Below are positions 26,853-35,443 of a DNA stretch of 37,804 nt, one piece after another (positions within the stretch are counted from its first letter, which is position 1; every line of letters starts with the position of its first letter). Location of the stretch: the NCBI GenBank assembly GCA_030613025.1, contig JAUWMT010000029.1, positions 1 to 37,804 of the forward strand, written 5' to 3'. A program made the position numbers and the translations under genes. The notes below the pieces were generated by a model. It searched no databases and was not told the origin of the DNA. It saw only the letters and a list, made by a program, of their open reading frames with translations. The DNA is from Candidatus Cloacimonadota bacterium (GTDB lineage: Bacteria > Cloacimonadota > Cloacimonadia > JGIOTU-2).

Positions 26853-27734
26853 TTATTTTGGCAGATTATCTTCAATGAGTTTTTGGAAATCGGGAACGAA
26901 TTCTTCAGAGAAACCCACCTCTTTCTTTAACAGTTTTCCTTCAGGAGATATAAAAAAAGTGGTTGGAATGCTTTTGATCCCGAACATTGTTGAAACTTCT
27001 CTATCACTATCCACAAGGATGAGATAAGTGATATTTGTTCCCCCGGCTGCAAGATCTTCTTTAAAACCAATTTGAGTTTCAGCGTCTTCTGAACTCACTC
27101 CAATAACTGTGAGTCCTCTGTTTTTATAATTGTCATAGAATTCTACAAGATATGGGATCTCAGCTTTACAGGGAGGACACCAGGTAGCCCAGAAATCCAG
27201 GATGATCAGTCCGTCCACTTCACTTAAAGTAACATCGTTGCCATCGATATCTTTCAGTGTAAAATCAAAGGCATCCATGAAGGAGACCCTTCCTGCTTCC
27301 ACATCTTCCCAGATATGCAGGTTGGCTTTGACTTTGTTTATTTTTTCAACAATTGTCTCTTTGCTCTCTGCTCCCATGAAATAATCCTGAACATCACCGT
27401 TACTGAACATTACGACGGTTGGCACTCCGTCTTTCACACGAAATCTTATTTCATTTAAAAATTGTTCATTCTTTTTAACATCCATTTTCGCCACTATGAT
27501 ATCCTGCATTTCATCCTGAATTCCCTCGAGAGCGGTGAGCACTTCATCACAGCTATCGCAATCTGCAGGAATAAATACTACGACAAGGAGTTCGTTCTTG
27601 ATCAGTTCCTCAAAATTCTCACCGGTCATTTCTATTATTGAACTAGTTTGGGCTGAGCAACCGAATGCCACGAGCAATCCAGCGATAAAAATAGCAAGTC
27701 CAAATTTTTGCATGATCGTTTTCGTACTTTTCAT
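26853..27734 (-). CDS. Lipoprotein with two thioredoxin-fold domains (TlpA/ResA-like)
   Basis: A 293-residue protein from the ATG at 27734 with AGGAG upstream. Lipoprotein-type signal to C26. The first thioredoxin domain (about 35-140) has C59-D-S-C62 and a cis-proline region GVPTVVMF. The second (about 155-293) has WATWC186-PPC189 and SIPTTFFI, the usual TlpA/ResA arrangement. It would handle thiol-disulfide exchange on the outside of the cell membrane. It begins 43 bases after the FAD-subunit gene with no terminator between, so it may be the last gene of the molybdenum-hydroxylase operon. Two redox-active domains in one lipoprotein is uncommon. Confidence 0.85.
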   Translation of the reverse strand: MKSTKTIMQKFGLAIFIAGLLVAFGCSAQTSSIIEMTGENFEELIKNELLVVVFIPADCDSCDEVLTALEGIQDEMQDIIVAKMDVKKNEQFLNEIRFRVKDGVPTVVMFSNGDVQDYFMGAESKETIVEKINKVKANLHIWEDVEAGRVSFMDAFDFTLKDIDGNDVTLSEVDGLIILDFWATWCPPCKAEIPYLVEFYDNYKNRGLTVIGVSSEDAETQIGFKEDLAAGGTNITYLILVDSDREVSTMFGIKSIPTTFFISPEGKLLKKEVGFSEEFVPDFQKLIEDNLPK

Positions 27735-27777
27735 CAATTCTCCTGATTATTTAATTATTTACAATAAAATTTACTTA

Positions 27778-28638
27778 TTAAGTCAAATCCATTAAGCTTG
27801 TGTAGAAAAGCTGCTGCAGAGCGGGGATTTTGTAGAAAGTGGACCAGCGGACTCCGGTTTCATCAAGGATTTTTTGGGCGACCTTTCTGCTCACTTCTTT
27901 CCATAGATCCGCAGATATTGATTGCTGCTTTAGTTCCTTCTCAATATCTTTTAATCTTTGGGGAACTGAGAATAATGCTCCAAAGGCAAAACGGATATCC
28001 TCGATCTTATCTTTGTTTGTTTTAAGAAGGATAGCATAACTCAATCTGCTTATTGAAACTCCGGATCTTCGACCTAGTTTGTAAAAGCAATATTTCCAGT
28101 CTTTAACGGGTAGCGGAAGATGAATTTCAGCCAAAATTTCATCGGGATGAATGTCCGTTTTGTATGGTTTTATAAGAATATTTTCCAAAGGTACAATTCT
28201 TTCATCTCCAACTGAGCAAAGTCTGACCTGTACATCATACACAAGAAGAGGTGCGATGCTGTCTGCGCAGGCAGCAAGATTACAAATGTTCCCACCGATC
28301 GTGGCTACATTTCTTATCTGTGGAGATCCGATCCGGTCAACTGCCATTTTCAAAACTGGAAAATATGATCTTACATCCTCACTAATACCGATCTCTTTGA
28401 AAGTGCAGCATGCTCCGATCCTGCAAACATTACCTTTGATCTCGATATTTCTGAATTCCTGAATGTCATGAATATCGACAATATGCTTCACTGGATCGAG
28501 TTTGCTGGCTCCTTTACGTATATCTACAAGCATATCAGTACCGCCGGCAATAATCTTACTCTGCGCACCATTTTTGTTCATAAATTCAAGAGCTGGTCTT
28601 AATTTGGTAAATTTATGAAAAGAATATTGTTTTTTCAT
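27778..28638 (-). CDS. FAD-binding subunit of a xanthine-dehydrogenase-family molybdenum hydroxylase
   Basis: A 286-residue protein of normal medium-subunit length. FAD contacts are IIAGGTDMLVDIRKG (29-43) and TIGGNICNLAACADS (113-127). It passes electrons from the Mo/Fe-S subunits to an acceptor. Its start overlaps the large-subunit stop by four bases (ATGA), a sign of coupled translation. No [2Fe-2S] subunit gene follows; the next gene is a thioredoxin-like lipoprotein. Substrate identity cannot be read from this subunit. Confidence 0.92.
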   Translation of the reverse strand: MKKQYSFHKFTKLRPALEFMNKNGAQSKIIAGGTDMLVDIRKGASKLDPVKHIVDIHDIQEFRNIEIKGNVCRIGACCTFKEIGISEDVRSYFPVLKMAVDRIGSPQIRNVATIGGNICNLAACADSIAPLLVYDVQVRLCSVGDERIVPLENILIKPYKTDIHPDEILAEIHLPLPVKDWKYCFYKLGRRSGVSISRLSYAILLKTNKDKIEDIRFAFGALFSVPQRLKDIEKELKQQSISADLWKEVSRKVAQKILDETGVRWSTFYKIPALQQLFYTSLMDLT

Positions 28639-31001
28639 TTTTTTATTTGGTATAATGTTTTCCCTGTCTTAATCTGCTCAAGATCGAGGGGAAGATGGTA
28701 GAATCTTTTGCCAAGCGCATTAGCGACAGCATTATTGATCGCTGCAGCAGTAATTTCAAGTGTGGGCTCACCAAGACTTTTTGCTCCGAAGGGTCCAAAT
28801 CTGTCGGGATTTTCTACAAAGAATGCCCTTATTTCTCCAACATCAACGCTGGTCGGGATAAGATATTCATCGAAATTAATATTCTGTATTTCTGCATTTT
28901 TAACGATCACTTCTTCCATGATTCCGTATCCTGCGCCCATGGAAACTCCTCCATATATCTGCCCAAGAGCGCCCAGTCTGTTGATTATTTGTCCTGCATC
29001 ATGAACTGCCGTAACTCTTTTTACCAATATTTTACCGGATGCGGCGTTCACCTCCACTTCTGCGATCTGGCAGCCATACACATAAGTGAAATAGGCAGGA
29101 CCTTGACCGATCTCTTCATCCCAGTCAACTTCAGGTGCTTTGAACCATCCATAGGCGCTGAGATTCACGCCATTTAGATATGCTTTATCGCATGCTTCAG
29201 AAACAGCAATTTTCTTTCCCGATCCTTCATGTACAATATAATGATCAGCAAACTTGAACGTCGCCCTTTCACTAAGCTCCCATTCATCTATCAGCATTTT
29301 TTCAATTCTTTTTTTAACAATTTCAGCCGCATTTTTTACTGCTTCTCCACCCACTAAGGTTGATCGTGAGGCGACAGTTGGACCACCATCAGCCACCCTG
29401 CTCGTATCCTGTTCAAGATAGTAGATATCATCAGGAGAAATGCCGAGAGTTTCTGCAGCGATCATGGAAAAGGTCATGCGTAAGCCCTGACCATTCTCAG
29501 CTAATCCTGATATGAGATATACACTTCCATCTTTCTGAATACTAATAAGAGATCCAGTGGCATCAACACCTTCCGCACCAAGTGAACACCCACGGAAACT
29601 ACACGCAAGCCCGATTCCCTCTTTAATATTTGATCCCGCTGAAAACTGATTGTCATTCAATATGAGATTTATAGAATGGGAATTCCCCTCAACTGAATAT
29701 TTGGCTTTGTATGTCTCATACTTTTTCTCAAAATCCGATTCTTTCGTTGCCTTATCAATAACTTGATTCAAGCTCACAACGTGATTTGACAAAATTTGTC
29801 CGCTGGCAGTTTCCGAATCCTGCTTATAGCCGTTTATCCTTCGGATTTCAATCGGCGACATATGTAACTCATCCGCCAACTCATCCATCAGAGATTCCTG
29901 GGCAAAAATGATCTGCGGAGAACCAAAACCTCTCATTGCGCCTGTGTATGGATTGTTTGTATAAACAGCCCGGACATCGGTATGGACATTCTTCACCTCG
30001 TAAGGACCTGTTGCCTGTACAACCGAACGCCATGTTACAAATGGACTCATCGAGGCATAGGCACCACCGTCAGCGAGTATATCTATCTTCATTGCTTTCA
30101 GGATGCCTTTATTTGAAACGCCAACTTTATAATTCATAGTGTAAGGATGACGTTTATAACTTTCAATTATGGATTCTTCACGCGAAAGATGTATCCGAAC
30201 AGGTTTGCCAACTTTTTTACAGGCAACGCAAGCTCGGGCAGCTAGCATGTCCATAGTGTCGTCTTTGCCGCCGAAAGAGCCACCCAGTTCATTTTGTATA
30301 ATATGAATATTCGCAAGAGGCACCTTCATTACTTGGGCGACAATTCTCCTGCAGGTAAATGGATTTTGTACCGAACCATAAATTTTATAAACATCTTTCC
30401 TGAAATCAGGCACCGCAGTAATGCATTCCGGCTCTATGTAAGCATGCTCGATAGCAGGTGTGGTGTATGTTCTCTCGATGATGACATCGGATTCCTGAAA
30501 ACCCTTCTCAATATTGCCCTTTCTTAAGGGATAATGATTGATGAGATTCGATTTATTTTCAGGATGAATAAGCAGCGCATCCTTATCCAAAGCATGTGTA
30601 TAATCTGATAAAACAGGAAGCTCCTCAACCTCGATCTTAATTAGTGTGAGCGCTTTCTGAACGGCTTCCTTATCTTCTCCCACCACCAGCGATACTACAT
30701 CCGCAGGGCAATAGATCTTATCGAAGGAAAACACCGGCTGGTCATACTTTATCACACCTGAGATATTGTTTCCGGGTACATCCTTGTGAGTAATGATTAC
30801 CTCAACTCCCGTAACTCTCTCTGCCTGAGAAATGTCGATATTCTTGATTATGCCGTGGGGAACTGTAGTCTTTTTTTGTGCAGCAAAACACATACCCGGG
30901 AAGGAGATATCGGCAGCGTATTGTGCTCTGCCGGTAACTTTTTCATAGGCATCAGTTCTCGGCAAATTCTTCCCTACTACACTAAATATATTATTTTTCA
31001 T
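28635..31001 (-). CDS. Molybdenum-binding large subunit of a xanthine-dehydrogenase-family hydroxylase
   Basis: A 788-residue protein. It starts directly with the aldehyde oxidase/xanthine dehydrogenase hammerhead domain (VTGRAQYAADI), so no Fe-S domain is fused at its N-terminus. Molybdopterin-site landmarks are GGSFGGKDD (about 240-248), AMRGFGSPQ (about 355), GQGLR and the catalytic E745 in SLGEPTLEITAAA. The enzyme would hydroxylate a purine or other N-heterocycle. It overlaps both neighbours by four bases (ATGA). Linkage to ssnA is characteristic of the selenium-dependent molybdenum-hydroxylase clusters of anaerobes, but selenium maturation genes (selD, yqeB, yqeC) are not in the window. 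Confidence 0.93.
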   Translation of the reverse strand: MKNNIFSVVGKNLPRTDAYEKVTGRAQYAADISFPGMCFAAQKKTTVPHGIIKNIDISQAERVTGVEVIITHKDVPGNNISGVIKYDQPVFSFDKIYCPADVVSLVVGEDKEAVQKALTLIKIEVEELPVLSDYTHALDKDALLIHPENKSNLINHYPLRKGNIEKGFQESDVIIERTYTTPAIEHAYIEPECITAVPDFRKDVYKIYGSVQNPFTCRRIVAQVMKVPLANIHIIQNELGGSFGGKDDTMDMLAARACVACKKVGKPVRIHLSREESIIESYKRHPYTMNYKVGVSNKGILKAMKIDILADGGAYASMSPFVTWRSVVQATGPYEVKNVHTDVRAVYTNNPYTGAMRGFGSPQIIFAQESLMDELADELHMSPIEIRRINGYKQDSETASGQILSNHVVSLNQVIDKATKESDFEKKYETYKAKYSVEGNSHSINLILNDNQFSAGSNIKEGIGLACSFRGCSLGAEGVDATGSLISIQKDGSVYLISGLAENGQGLRMTFSMIAAETLGISPDDIYYLEQDTSRVADGGPTVASRSTLVGGEAVKNAAEIVKKRIEKMLIDEWELSERATFKFADHYIVHEGSGKKIAVSEACDKAYLNGVNLSAYGWFKAPEVDWDEEIGQGPAYFTYVYGCQIAEVEVNAASGKILVKRVTAVHDAGQIINRLGALGQIYGGVSMGAGYGIMEEVIVKNAEIQNINFDEYLIPTSVDVGEIRAFFVENPDRFGPFGAKSLGEPTLEITAAAINNAVANALGKRFYHLPLDLEQIKTGKTLYQIKK

Positions 31002-32359
31002 TTTTGCAGGAATTCAAATTTCTCACGAACTATTTCGGCGACTTCATAAGCTTTTTTATAAACTTCTTCTTCAGGATCAATGATAAAATCTTTCATCAGA
31101 TAATGTCCTTTTTTACAGACTGTTCGAACAGCCGTTTCACACGCTCCATAGATAAAATGACCAAGGAAATTATCCACATCCATTGGTGTGTACGGACAAT
31201 AATCAAGCACAATGAGATCAGCAGAATCACCCTTTTGAAGCATCGGGGTATTTCCAAAAAATCGGTCATGGATATCAAAGCTGTTCTTCAAAATACGCGC
31301 CACAATATCAAATCCGATCTCTGAACTCTGATTAAGATGGCGACAAGTGAGAAATGCCATTTTGATCGTTTTGAGCATATTACAATGCATGCCATCTGTG
31401 CCAAGTAATAAAGGAATTTCTTCGGGTACTTTTGCGAGATTAAGCGTACCAACTGCATTATTGAAGTTTGAATCTGGATTATGAATAAGCGATGCATTGT
31501 GCTTTGAAATAATCTCGAAATCCTTGTCCACCAGGTGATTCCCATGAGCAAGAAAAGTGAGATCGTTCAACAAATTGAATTTCTCCAATCTTTCGCAAAT
31601 CGACAATCCGTATTTTTCTTCAGAATAGCGGACATCAAAGGCATCTTCGGCTGCATGGATATGATATCCACACCCCAGATCCTTTGTCTTCTCTCGTATA
31701 AAGTCCAGCGTTTCATCCGATAAGGTAAAAAGTGCGTGCAGACCAAACTGTCCCTTGAAATCTGCGGTGGTACGATATTTAATGAAAGTCAGATTTTCCC
31801 TAACTGCACTCTTCGTGTTTTCTTTGCCATTCCGATCTGACACTTCGTAGGAAAGAACAGCATTTATCTCTCGAGCTTTTAACACTTTCTTAATAATGTT
31901 TTCACTATCTTCAGGGAAATCCGGAGATGAGTGATGGTCGAACAGGGTGAGCACACCGTTTTTTATTGCCTCGATCGCTGCGAGTTCAGCGCTTACTTCA
32001 ATTGCCTTTTCATTCAGAGCTATATCAAACTTCCACCAGAGATTCTCAAGAATTTCAACGAAATTACTCATCTTTCCCGTTACGGGCAATCCCTTGCTCA
32101 ATCGGGAATAGATATGTTCGTGAAAATTGGTTAAAGGGGGCAAAACCATACGTCCCTGAGCGTCGTACTCTCCCAAATCCTTGTCGTCGGTTATAGAATC
32201 TTTTCGTTTAACCGGACCCTTTAAAAAATTAGCGTAAGATGTTTCTTTGATCTCATGAATGAGTTCATCCTCAATAATAATATCGCCAAATAACGGAACA
32301 AATGCCCCATTTTTAAATTGGCAGATAAAGGCATTTTTTATGTACAAGTTATTATTCAT
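30998..32359 (-). CDS. ssnA: SsnA-type amidohydrolase
   Basis: A 453-residue metal-dependent hydrolase. Ligand motifs are H80-E-H82 (NFHEHIYSRLSKG), HIHAAED, AHGNHL and LGTDGMHCNM, in the order of the cytosine/guanine-deaminase-like group and matching SsnA. SsnA proteins accompany selenium-dependent molybdenum hydroxylases and are thought to deaminate or open an aromatic N-heterocycle. The stop overlaps the start of the large-subunit gene (ATGA). The ribosome site is weak, which fits a start driven by the promoter region in the 170-base gap upstream. Confidence 0.87.
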   Translation of the reverse strand: MNNNLYIKNAFICQFKNGAFVPLFGDIIIEDELIHEIKETSYANFLKGPVKRKDSITDDKDLGEYDAQGRMVLPPLTNFHEHIYSRLSKGLPVTGKMSNFVEILENLWWKFDIALNEKAIEVSAELAAIEAIKNGVLTLFDHHSSPDFPEDSENIIKKVLKAREINAVLSYEVSDRNGKENTKSAVRENLTFIKYRTTADFKGQFGLHALFTLSDETLDFIREKTKDLGCGYHIHAAEDAFDVRYSEEKYGLSICERLEKFNLLNDLTFLAHGNHLVDKDFEIISKHNASLIHNPDSNFNNAVGTLNLAKVPEEIPLLLGTDGMHCNMLKTIKMAFLTCRHLNQSSEIGFDIVARILKNSFDIHDRFFGNTPMLQKGDSADLIVLDYCPYTPMDVDNFLGHFIYGACETAVRTVCKKGHYLMKDFIIDPEEEVYKKAYEVAEIVREKFEFLQK

Positions 32360-32399
32360 AATATTTTCTCAACAATCGTTTTGAATTAGATTCCCATCC

Positions 32400-32416
32400 A
32401 AATTTGTGTCAAATTT
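32400..32416. promoter_or_regulatory. Operator-like inverted repeat upstream of ssnA
   Basis: AAATTTG-TGT-CAAATTT is a perfect 7-3-7 inverted repeat 41 bases ahead of the ssnA start, in the only sizeable gap (32360-32529) of the catabolic gene set. On the minus strand it includes a TTGACA, but no convincing -10 follows. It may be a regulator site. Confidence 0.35.
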
Positions 32417-32529
32417 ATTGAATGGGTACGGGAAAAATAATTACTCTGCTTTCTTTGTTGAAGCAATGATATTTTTTTTAATTCTCTATAACTAAGCAAT
32501 GTCTATAACCCCCTTGACTGTTCTTATCA

Positions 32530-33957
32530 TCACGTATGATCTTCGCTTTTACGATACGTGCCGTACCCGGCTTTACCTAAAAATTTACCATCTTCTATAA
32601 TGACCTCTCCCCTGATGATGGTCTTTATAATTTTGTCTTGAAAAGTCCGACCATTGAAAGGAGTATATTTTCCTTTAGAATGAAGATTCTCATTTTTCAT
32701 GAGCGTTTTTGCAATTGGATCGATTAACACGAAATCTGCATCTTTGCCAATGTTAATGCTTCCTTTATGAGAATCCAATCTGTAGTTTTGGGCTGCATTT
32801 TCACTGAGAATTTTCTGCATCTCCTGAAGACTCAACCGATTTTTCATGAATCCTTCGGAAAAAATAAAGGGAACCATAAGCTCACTTCCGGGTATGCCGC
32901 CATAATCGGTCCAGATACTCCCCGTGCTTTTTTCTTTTGGATAATCACAACCAGCATGGTCAGTGGCAACAAAGCTGATAATGCCGCTTCTCAGTCCTTC
33001 CCAAAGCGCTTCTTTATCTTCTGCAAATCTCACAGGTGGCGCTGTCTTTAGGATGCTTCCCCGCTGCTCAAAATCATCTTGTGTAAAAGCAAGAAAATGA
33101 GTGCAGGTCTCGGTCGTGATATAAATTCCTTGTGCTTGAGCTTTTTCGATCAACTCCAATCCCCTTTTACTGGTCAGGTGAACAATATGGAAGTGTGCAC
33201 AGGTTTTCTGAGCAATACTAATCACTGTTTTGATTGCCAGAACCTCTGCTTCGATACCTCGTGCCTGGCAATAATGTGTTATTTCATTTTTATTTTCTTT
33301 TTGAAATTGTGCCCGCCTGCTCTCAACAAATGCCTTATCCTCAGCATGAACTGCAACCGGCAGATCCAACTCTTTTGCAATAAACGCAACTTCTTCAAGC
33401 TGTGATGGGACAAGTGCAGTAAAATCATCCATTCCTGAGATCAGATAAGTTTTGAATCCGATAACTCCCTGCTCTTTAAGTTCATGCATATTATCTCTTA
33501 CTGAATTATCCTCAAACTCTGTTCCGGAAACCCCTCCCCACAAAGTGAAATCAACAACTGCCTTTTTGCTGATAACATTAAGTTTATGCTGCAAATTCAC
33601 AGCATTTATTATAGGTGGAATTGATGTGCATGGCATATCTGCAACTGTGGTAACGCCGCCGAATGCTGCTGCTAATGTGCCTGTGTAAAAATCCTCCCGC
33701 CACTCAAAACCCGGGTCATCATAGTGCACATGCGGATCGATAGCTCCGGGTAGTACAACACAGTAATTCGCATCAACGCAATGAGTTGAGTCTCTTTTAA
33801 TCTTTCTTTTTGAACGAATGTAATCAGATAATTCAACAGGAGTAGCAGGAACTTCTTCTTTCTCGATGACATTCACTATTTGAGAATCATAAAGTATGTT
33901 GCAAAGAACAGCTCTGTTTCCACGGGAGAGAATTGCATTGATAATTTTTGGGGGCAT
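32530..33957 (-). CDS. Cyclic amidohydrolase (allantoinase/hydantoinase/dihydroorotase type)
   Basis: A 475-residue protein with a full set of binuclear metal ligands: H76 and H78 (PGAIDPHVHYDDPG), carboxylated lysine K169 (GVIGFKTYL), H204 (AVHAED), H260 (HIVHLTS) and D333 (ATDHAG). The sentence GTLAAAFGGVTTVADMP is typical of allantoinase and hydantoinase. These enzymes open a cyclic ureide or imide ring. Its start is one base after the stop of the PLP enzyme gene. The substrate is inferred to be a ring produced during purine or hydantoin breakdown. The first 60 residues are longer than usual. Confidence 0.88.
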   Translation of the reverse strand: MPPKIINAILSRGNRAVLCNILYDSQIVNVIEKEEVPATPVELSDYIRSKRKIKRDSTHCVDANYCVVLPGAIDPHVHYDDPGFEWREDFYTGTLAAAFGGVTTVADMPCTSIPPIINAVNLQHKLNVISKKAVVDFTLWGGVSGTEFEDNSVRDNMHELKEQGVIGFKTYLISGMDDFTALVPSQLEEVAFIAKELDLPVAVHAEDKAFVESRRAQFQKENKNEITHYCQARGIEAEVLAIKTVISIAQKTCAHFHIVHLTSKRGLELIEKAQAQGIYITTETCTHFLAFTQDDFEQRGSILKTAPPVRFAEDKEALWEGLRSGIISFVATDHAGCDYPKEKSTGSIWTDYGGIPGSELMVPFIFSEGFMKNRLSLQEMQKILSENAAQNYRLDSHKGSINIGKDADFVLIDPIAKTLMKNENLHSKGKYTPFNGRTFQDKIIKTIIRGEVIIEDGKFLGKAGYGTYRKSEDHT

Positions 33958-33958
33958 T

Positions 33959-35443
33959 TTATTTATATTGTTTCAACAGTCCTGTTCTATCGTTGAATTC
34001 TCTAATAGAATCATCCCACTGCTCATAAGAATGCATTTTTTCTTTCCAATAATTTTCATCATACCATTGAGCATTGAGCTCCTCGACTGTCTTTCCCTGT
34101 TGCTCGATCCATGTGAAATACTTCAGATTATGCATACGCTTCTTATCCCAATAGGAAAGCTCAAGCATATAATCGATCGTCACGCCCATGAGATAGCGCT
34201 CAAAATCACCAACAGCATTGTAAGGAGTATATTCCCCAAATTGTTCACGCAGCTCTTTCATTCTGGATTGATATAGCTCCATCGAGTCGGTTGCTACTGT
34301 TAAGAGCACATCATTTTCGTCCATCTCATAGTATTTTGCCATCTTAATAGTACCAAGAAGATTTGCAATGGATGAGATGCCAAGCAAGTGAAGTTCATCA
34401 ACAAATTTCTTATCAATTCCTTGAGCGATCAAATATTCCTTTCCAGCAGGTTCATTGAATAACCTAAGCAGATTCATACATGCGTCATCATCAATATCTG
34501 CTACCATATCCATATTTTTCATGTTATGTATCCAGGGCACATGCTTGTCGCCAATACCTTCAATACGATGACCGCCATAACCATTGAACAGAAGAGTGGG
34601 ACACTGTAGAGCTTCACCTGCACAGACTTTTATTGTCGGATACATTTCTCTAAGATATTCAGCGCAGCCAAGTGTTCCTGCAGAACCTTGAGTAAGGAAT
34701 AATCCGCTCATTCGCTGTCCTTCAAATTTATTATGTTCAAAGACTTCTTCCATTGCATGACCGGTCACCGCATAATGCCAGATAGCATTGCCAAATTCGC
34801 TGAACTGGTTGAGCACAACGATCTCGTCGCCCCGGGCTTCTTTGAGCTCTTTTGTTTTGTCATATACTTCTTTTACATTGCTTTCGCAGCCGGGTGTTGG
34901 ATATATCTCCGCGCCGACTTTTTCGAGCCATTCAAAACGCTCTCGGGACATACCTTCGGGCAAAACTGCGATAGAGGGACACGCAAGTAAATATGAATCA
35001 TACGCACCACCTCTGCAATAATTTCCAGTTGAGGGCCAAAGTGCTTTCTGCTTAGTCGGGTCAAAAGCACCTCGAATCAGTTTTTCGACAAGAGGTCCGA
35101 AGGTCGCCCCAACTTTATGTGAACCGGTTGGAAAATATTTCCCCAGCAGGATAAAAATTCGTGCTTTAACGCCGGTAAGTTCGGATGGTACTTCCATATA
35201 ATTCACACCACCATAACCGCCCCCTTTTTCTTTTGGCTCATTCTTCCAGGTAATTCTATAAAGATTTCTTGGGTGCAGATCCCATAATCCTATGTTTAAA
35301 AGTTCCTTCCTGATTTTCTCGGGTACTTTTTCAGGATTGATCATCTCTTCATAGGTCGGAATTATGATATTCCTTTCCCTGCACCGCTGAACGATATTCT
35401 CCAAAACTTTTTTATCCACGACTTCGAAATTTTTGTTGTTCAT
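33959..35443 (-). CDS. PLP-dependent fold-type-II enzyme (tryptophan-synthase-beta superfamily)
   Basis: A 494-residue protein from ATG 35443; a GTG three codons upstream is possible. PLP lysine K110 is in PTGSHKVGATFG, and the phosphate/substrate loop is STGNYCRGGAYDS (138-150). The order matches the PALP superfamily (cysteine synthase, threonine dehydratase, ammonia lyases), but with about 100 extra residues at each end. The gene family is often unnamed. It is not YgeX (diaminopropionate ammonia-lyase), whose motifs differ. It is the first gene of the catabolic set, so it may release ammonia from, or elongate, an amino acid formed after ring opening. Confidence 0.85.
   Translation of the reverse strand: MNNKNFEVVDKKVLENIVQRCRERNIIIPTYEEMINPEKVPEKIRKELLNIGLWDLHPRNLYRITWKNEPKEKGGGYGGVNYMEVPSELTGVKARIFILLGKYFPTGSHKVGATFGPLVEKLIRGAFDPTKQKALWPSTGNYCRGGAYDSYLLACPSIAVLPEGMSRERFEWLEKVGAEIYPTPGCESNVKEVYDKTKELKEARGDEIVVLNQFSEFGNAIWHYAVTGHAMEEVFEHNKFEGQRMSGLFLTQGSAGTLGCAEYLREMYPTIKVCAGEALQCPTLLFNGYGGHRIEGIGDKHVPWIHNMKNMDMVADIDDDACMNLLRLFNEPAGKEYLIAQGIDKKFVDELHLLGISSIANLLGTIKMAKYYEMDENDVLLTVATDSMELYQSRMKELREQFGEYTPYNAVGDFERYLMGVTIDYMLELSYWDKKRMHNLKYFTWIEQQGKTVEELNAQWYDENYWKEKMHSYEQWDDSIREFNDRTGLLKQYK

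Follow-up and report, generated by a model that had tools for sequence, protein, structure and literature searches.

We analyzed a stretch of 37,804 nucleotides from a Candidatus Cloacimonadota bacterium (assembly GCA_030613025.1, contig JAUWMT010000029.1). This window is an entire contig, named C28 here, of a 2.83-Mb assembly with 98 contigs and a completeness of 98%. It contains a catabolic gene cluster on the minus strand (locus A). In the order of transcription, the genes encode a pyridoxal phosphate (PLP) enzyme named PLP1, a cyclic amidohydrolase, an SsnA-like aminohydrolase, the molybdenum (Mo) and flavin adenine dinucleotide (FAD) subunits of a hydroxylase, and a double-thioredoxin lipoprotein (Table 1).

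A first-pass annotation of this DNA had described the same gene order and the absence of a [2Fe-2S] subunit in the cluster. Reading of the domains and translations of C28 agrees on both points. The genes had also been called mostly overlapping. This is true for SsnA/Mo and Mo/FAD, with overlaps of 4 nt. Conversely, PLP1 and the amidohydrolase are 1 nt apart, and the amidohydrolase and SsnA 170 nt. The earlier PLP1 start at 35443, instead of 35452, is obtained from an in-frame ATG.

Table 1. Coordinates of the genes in the window (C28) and of the carbamoyl-phosphate genes on contig C35.
Product	Contig	Position	Strand	Basis
PLP1, fold-type II PLP enzyme, 497 aa	C28	33959..35452	-	Pfam PALP; CysK matches weak, far under cut-offs
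Cyclic amidohydrolase, allantoinase/hydantoinase superfamily, putative HyuA-like ring opener	C28	32530..33957	-	TIGR03178 over cut-off; metal-ligand motifs
SsnA-like aminohydrolase	C28	30998..32359	-	Best models PRK07203 / TIGR03314 SsnA
Mo subunit (Mo1), xanthine-dehydrogenase-type molybdenum hydroxylase	C28	28635..31001	-	Ald_Xan_dh_C + MoCoBD_1 + MoCoBD_2; without Fer2
FAD subunit of the same hydroxylase	C28	27778..28638	-	FAD_binding_5 + CO_deh_flav_C
Double-thioredoxin lipoprotein	C28	26853..27737	-	Two thioredoxin-fold domains; CxxC motifs CDSC + CPPC; lipobox
Class V aminotransferase / cysteine-desulfurase-like protein	C28	25539..26660	-	Aminotran_5
OTC1, carbamoyltransferase	C35	18218-19294		
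OTC2, carbamoyltransferase	C35	19842-20879		
Carbamate kinase	C35	21073-22035		arcC 412.6 vs 358 bits

The top model of the amidohydrolase is the allantoinase AllB (367.9 bits, cut-off 357.85), and the D-hydantoinase model stays under its cut-off. The metal-ligand motifs read in the translation are HxH, K, H, H, and D. The SsnA-like protein scores 386 bits (PRK07203) and 342 bits (TIGR03314), below both cut-offs (444 and 455.5). Its orthologs in relatives have about 30-34% identity with E. coli SsnA. The best model of Mo1 is XdhA, with a score under the XdhA cut-off.

Subunits of the molybdenum hydroxylase

We searched the whole genome for the [2Fe-2S] domain of the xanthine-dehydrogenase type (Fer2_2). 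None was found on C28, and three were found on other contigs (C35, C73, and C62). The domains MoCoBD_1 and FAD_binding_5 are also present three times each, on C28, C73, and C62. C73 and C62 carry complete trios of Mo, FAD, and iron-sulfur (FeS) genes. The third FeS gene is an orphan (C35:11052-11516, locus L010), with no adjoining Mo or FAD gene. Its product retains cysteines at the eight ligand positions (C40, 45, 48, 60, 99, 102, 134, and 136). So, the small subunit is encoded elsewhere in the genome, as the first-pass annotation had considered, and the Mo:FAD:FeS count is 3:3:3. The Mo, FAD, and eight-cysteine FeS components of a heterotrimeric xanthine-dehydrogenase-type hydroxylase are all present, the last one outside the window. 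The C28 Mo and FAD subunits probably partner in the cell with the C35 FeS protein, as an ordinary heterotrimer built from two loci. A loan of the FeS subunit from the other two hydroxylases is needless. Both are complete trios, and their FeS proteins are just 47-49% identical to the orphan.

We followed both the Mo subunit and the C35 FeS, through their orthologs, across 60 relatives (G001 and following; the own genome is G000). In the same genus, locus A consists of PLP1, amidohydrolase, SsnA, Mo, FAD, and the thioredoxin lipoprotein. Locus B consists of glutaredoxin, thioredoxin reductase, thioredoxin, FeS, YgfK, and OTC1. The same split is repeated in G001, G003, G005, and G007, so a standard small subunit with the same distribution as the cluster exists elsewhere in the genome. 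Eleven further genomes of the class (G010, G014, G015, G025, G026, G029, G034, G045, G050, G057, and G059) have the FeS gene adjoining Mo1 or near it. Most of these genomes have Mo1 fused to a C-terminal FAD domain. Such orthologs match Mo1 at 49-57%, with the FeS gene nearby, and the separate FAD subunit of the window corresponds to the fused domain at 36-39%. A single contig of G015 (C45) carries SsnA, Mo1-FAD, FeS, YgfK, OTC1, OTC2, carbamate kinase, and PLP1. There, FeS lies exactly between Mo1-FAD and YgfK.

In the FeS tree, the C35-type genes form a single clade (96/94), separate from the FeS genes partnered with the second and third Mo subunits (Mo2 and Mo3). We link the C35-type and the Mo1-adjacent FeS genes because of the gene counts, the identity values (mostly 52-59%, compared with 47-49% for the other FeS genes of the own genome), and the arrangement in G015. 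The operon broke, and the FeS subunit would now be supplied in trans. It is a gene relocation, and no new electron path is required.

A hydroxylase without clusters was also considered. In it, the C28 Mo and FAD subunits would work without [2Fe-2S], and electrons would pass directly or through another carrier, such as the thioredoxin protein. The C28 cluster has no FeS gene, and E. coli XdhD, devoid of cluster cysteines, is reported to be active with NADH (PMC12507026). The need for two [2Fe-2S] clusters, taken in the first-pass annotation as a property of the family, may thus not be absolute. Nevertheless, the lone FeS protein keeps its cysteines and is conserved together with the locus across the genus, and the orthologous Mo1-FAD fusions keep an FeS gene close. 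The same annotation placed the thioredoxin lipoprotein where the small subunit would usually be. Its translation begins with a lipoprotein signal, which indicates export, whereas no signal peptide is present at the start of the Mo subunit. The thioredoxin protein is therefore unfit to stand in for the small subunit, and it is probably not a component of the hydroxylase. With all the cysteines in the orphan FeS and the lipoprotein in a different compartment, we rejected the cluster-free enzyme and the thioredoxin carrier as highly improbable. The puzzle of the electron path is gone, and the interest moves to the variation of the pathway.

Locus B and a probable variant of the reductive urate pathway

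Upstream of the FeS gene, C35 encodes a glutaredoxin, a thioredoxin reductase, and a thioredoxin (L010:9337-10977). Downstream, it encodes a 431-aa open reading frame, YgfK, OTC1, OTC2, and carbamate kinase. YgfK is well above its cut-off (TIGR03315, 1310 bits versus 835). In G003, locus B continues on one contig through OTC2, carbamate kinase, a threonine-synthase-like PLP enzyme (PLP2), MocA, an XdhC-type protein, and the second Mo hydroxylase. G001 (L216) agrees with this continuity. Because of the G003 contig, C35 and C62 probably belong to one locus. The XdhC-type chaperone of C62 matched XdhC models other than those of yqeB and yqeC. The genome also contains selD (C65, 399.9 bits), so labile selenium in the Mo hydroxylase is possible.

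The biochemistry of reductive urate degradation was first published in 2025 (PMC12507026; comment in PMC12990295). In E. coli, XdhD-YgfM turns urate into yanthine, and YgfK reduces it. SsnA and HyuA open the rings to give 2,3-diureidopropionate. YgeW then removes one ureido group by phosphorolysis, YgeY removes the other by hydrolysis, and YgeX cleaves the resulting diaminopropionate (PMC12507026).

The window very likely represents one half of such a urate-degradation set, split in two, with the Mo and FAD subunits working with the C35 FeS. From the gene content, orthology, genome counts, and syntenic equivalence observed in the relatives, we infer the substrates and the direction of the pathway. 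A Mo hydroxylase would interconvert purines and urate, and YgfK would reduce the dioxopurine. SsnA and the amidohydrolase would open the rings to 2,3-diureidopropionate. One or more carbamoyltransferases, with carbamate kinase, would take off the ureido groups and make ATP. A PLP lyase would carry out the final step to pyruvate and ammonia.

This set shares with the E. coli and C. difficile pathway (PMC12507026) a Mo hydroxylase, YgfK, an SsnA-like protein, a putative HyuA-like protein, a PALP enzyme, and a carbamoyltransferase accompanied by carbamate kinase (YqeA in E. coli). However, here the genes lie in two loci, with PLP1 and PLP2 for YgeX and with OTC1 and OTC2 for YgeW and YgeY. The set is also distinct from the published variants with UacX, UacY, and the F420-type reductase. 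The first-pass annotation had proposed that the PLP enzyme and the amidohydrolase may define a variant pathway. A variant is supported, with the modification that it would be one of the reductive urate pathway, with one half in the window.

The hydroxylase can be compared with two known types. Like the XdhABC-type xanthine dehydrogenase, it has separate Mo, FAD, and 2x[2Fe-2S] subunits with standard domains, although the FeS gene is on another contig, beside ygfK. Like XdhD-YgfM of E. coli, it occupies the place in a urate cluster adjoining SsnA and YgfK. XdhD has a fused, cysteine-free Fe-S-like domain, whereas the FeS subunit here is separate and conserves all the cysteines. In E. coli K-12 xdhD (L116:23317-26187), the N-terminal [2Fe-2S]-like domain aligns over its full length with FeS subunits and has zero cysteines in residues 1-189. 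In other phyla, about eight cysteines are retained by the FeS proteins adjoining XdhD-like genes. Considering the reported activity of XdhD-YgfM with NADH (PMC12507026), XdhD may be a true hydroxylase devoid of ligands for the clusters.

Several points weigh against the urate assignment and the partnership with the C35 FeS. The SsnA-like protein is under the curated cut-off, and the best model of the amidohydrolase is an allantoinase. The family models found no YgeX, YgeY, or true YgeW in the own genome. The C28 Mo subunit is nearer to E. coli XdhA than to XdhD. Residue E606 of XdhD, proposed for yanthine formation, was tried as an indicator of the substrate and discarded; it belongs to an XdhD insert absent here. 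Also, the FeS tree gives no support for joining the C35-type and the Mo1-adjacent genes, and the genome is fragmented.

The scores of the amidohydrolase and SsnA could also suit another catabolism, such as that of hydantoins, allantoin-like ureides, or pyrimidines. The 15 PLP1 loci, out of 80, that show no pathway gene nearby point the same way. However, YgfK scores above its cut-off, and its gene is close to that of the partner FeS. SsnA, YgfK, carbamoyltransferase, carbamate kinase, Mo hydroxylases, and PLP enzymes also recur jointly in relatives, some of them with genuine YgeW and YgeY. We consider a catabolism other than that of urate to be unlikely.

Carbamoyltransferases and PLP enzymes

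The own genome has no YgeY over the cut-off (best match 26.9 versus 321.5 bits) and no true YgeW (OTC1 reaches 167 versus 500 bits). In the tree, OTC1 and OTC2 each form a clade of their own, apart from YgeW. Both conserve the carbamoyl-phosphate motifs (SLRTR and HPCQ). OTC2 is under all the carbamoyltransferase cut-offs.

The gene order in G025 and G033 is PLP2 ... PLP1-(carbamate kinase)-YgeW-YgeY-YgfK-SsnA. In G034, it is PLP2-PLP1-carbamate kinase-OTC2-OTC1-YgfK. OTC1 and OTC2 occupy the same syntenic slot as YgeW and YgeY. Among the 38 relatives with PLP1 and SsnA, 24 have only YgeY, 11 only OTC2, two both, and one neither (p 7e-7; co-occurrence p values were computed without phylogenetic correction). 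The two modules coexist in G004 and G010, on separate contigs, and also in locus L157. On the PLP1 tree, the module state requires at least seven changes, three of them forced by well-supported branches. Both OTC2 and YgeY states were seen within Cloacimonadota and within Chloroflexota.

OTC1 and OTC2 might instead be enzymes of arginine metabolism, of the N-acetylornithine carbamoyltransferase (AOTCase) type, unrelated to urate. OTC1 narrowly passes the AOTCase model (289.6 versus 288 bits), and the nearest solved structures of both proteins are AOTCases. Conversely, their place between YgfK and carbamate kinase/PLP1 is the slot that G025 and G033 fill with YgeW-YgeY. OTC2 and YgeY seldom occur in the same genome, and OTC2 falls under every carbamoyltransferase cut-off. 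Thus, an arginine role is improbable, although it deserves somewhat more weight than a non-urate locus.

In the simplest reading, each of the two enzymes, OTC1 and OTC2, is predicted to take off one ureido group. Extended to the whole pathway, it leads to a fully phosphorolytic variant, which we propose tentatively, with the chances slightly against it. OTC1 and OTC2 would strip both ureido groups and yield two carbamoyl phosphates, and carbamate kinase would convert them into two ATP. Instead of YgeX, PLP1 as a CysK-like lyase, alone or together with PLP2, would cleave the diaminopropionate formed or a ureido intermediate. Anaerobic phyla would repeatedly have swapped the OTC1-OTC2 and YgeW-YgeY modules. 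One half of this chemistry has a precedent. The transcarbamylases of viomycin and zwittermicin carbamylate L-2,3-diaminopropionate to beta-ureidoalanine (albizziin; PMC4581275), and in reverse this is the YgeY step by phosphorolysis. They are biosynthetic and have another gene context, and the likeness is limited to the reaction proposed for one OTC. Some PLP1 loci of Anaerolineae without YgeY (L171:2766-3722, L175:2363-3343, and L188:388-1338) have a PyrB-like transcarbamylase adjoining another carbamoyltransferase. It has 35-37% identity to E. coli PyrB, possibly another two-transferase arrangement.

YgeX, the 2,3-diaminopropionate ammonia-lyase, is like PLP1 a PLP enzyme and ends the known pathway. 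In the own genome, the best match to its model is PLP2, with 32 bits versus a cut-off of 532. Near-cut-off matches occur in 2 of 60 genomes of the class, where it is essentially absent. PLP1 is CysK/cystathionine-beta-synthase (CBS)-like and does not match the YgeX model, so the family models rule out that PLP1 is YgeX. Its AlphaFold model (pLDDT 91.7) has CBS and O-acetylserine sulfhydrylase as the best PDB folds. It consists of that core and about 160 extra residues; the fold comparison reveals the core and not the substrate. From its sequence and context, we infer that PLP1 takes the position of YgeX in the pathway.

PLP1 is present in 38 of the 43 SsnA-positive relatives (Fisher p 3e-7, uncorrected as above). 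We surveyed 80 PLP1 loci from many phyla, counting pathway genes within 10 kb. At least one was found in 65 loci; PLP2 was found in 42, and YgeX in two. No linked pathway gene was seen in the other 15 loci, some of which are on short contigs. The neighbours of ten sparsely linked loci had no shared theme. We do not claim a universal urate role for PLP1, given these unlinked loci. With some PLP1 genes found in isolation, its role may extend beyond urate. PLP1 is found both with and without YgeY, which rules it out as a replacement of YgeY.

Linked PLP1 loci are spread over mostly environmental, uncultured lineages, among them Cloacimonadota, Bipolaricaulota, Caldisericota, Bacteroidota, Marinimicrobia, and Chloroflexota. 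They bear on the age of the pathway, as PMC12990295 asks whether it is ancient or arose in the gut. The neighbourhood survey of PMC12507026 scores YgeX by PF00291. PLP1 satisfies this domain, so its clusters would look ordinary there. In general, the variant would be missed by surveys that score YgeX or YgeW by the mere presence of PF00291 or PF00185 in the neighbourhood. If the phosphorolytic variant is true, some environmental anaerobes obtain from each urate double the ATP derived from carbamoyl phosphate, and the CysK-like enzymes of a widespread family acquire a role. Our literature search found no paper linking Cloacimonadota with purine degradation; an earlier description (e.g., Liu et al. 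2023, 2025) is possible.

Neighbouring genes and the third hydroxylase

Within the genus, the thioredoxin lipoprotein gene again follows the FAD gene (G001-G007 and G009). The aminotransferase-like gene next to it in the window stays near the cluster in G002, G003, G004, and G007, of the same genus; its link with the pathway is unproven. Several genomes of this genus present, by eye, ExbB-/TonB-like genes between the amidohydrolase and SsnA (L077:12973-14477 and L080:8111-9619). In the window, the counterpart of this site is only the 170-nt gap (32360-32529).

On C35, the 431-aa open reading frame between FeS and ygfK (L010:11533-12828) has no Pfam or NCBIfam match. The FeS-ygfK spacing is about 13-22 bases in genomes of the same genus, compared with this intervening frame here. 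The glutaredoxin, thioredoxin reductase, and thioredoxin genes keep their position before FeS in G001, G003, G005, G007, G008, and G009, and in G011 the last two do. The open frame that holds the selD match (G000:C65:51561-52487) has 743 aa, so SelD may be part of a fusion.

The third hydroxylase, the C73 trio (L011:2775-15012), is flanked on one side by an FdrA/DUF1116-type set and a cyclase-like gene. On the other side are a CaiB-type transferase and an amidase. The FdrA/DUF1116-type set is presumably similar to the oxamate transcarbamylase AllFGH (PMC11326118). This block is kept in G002 and G003.

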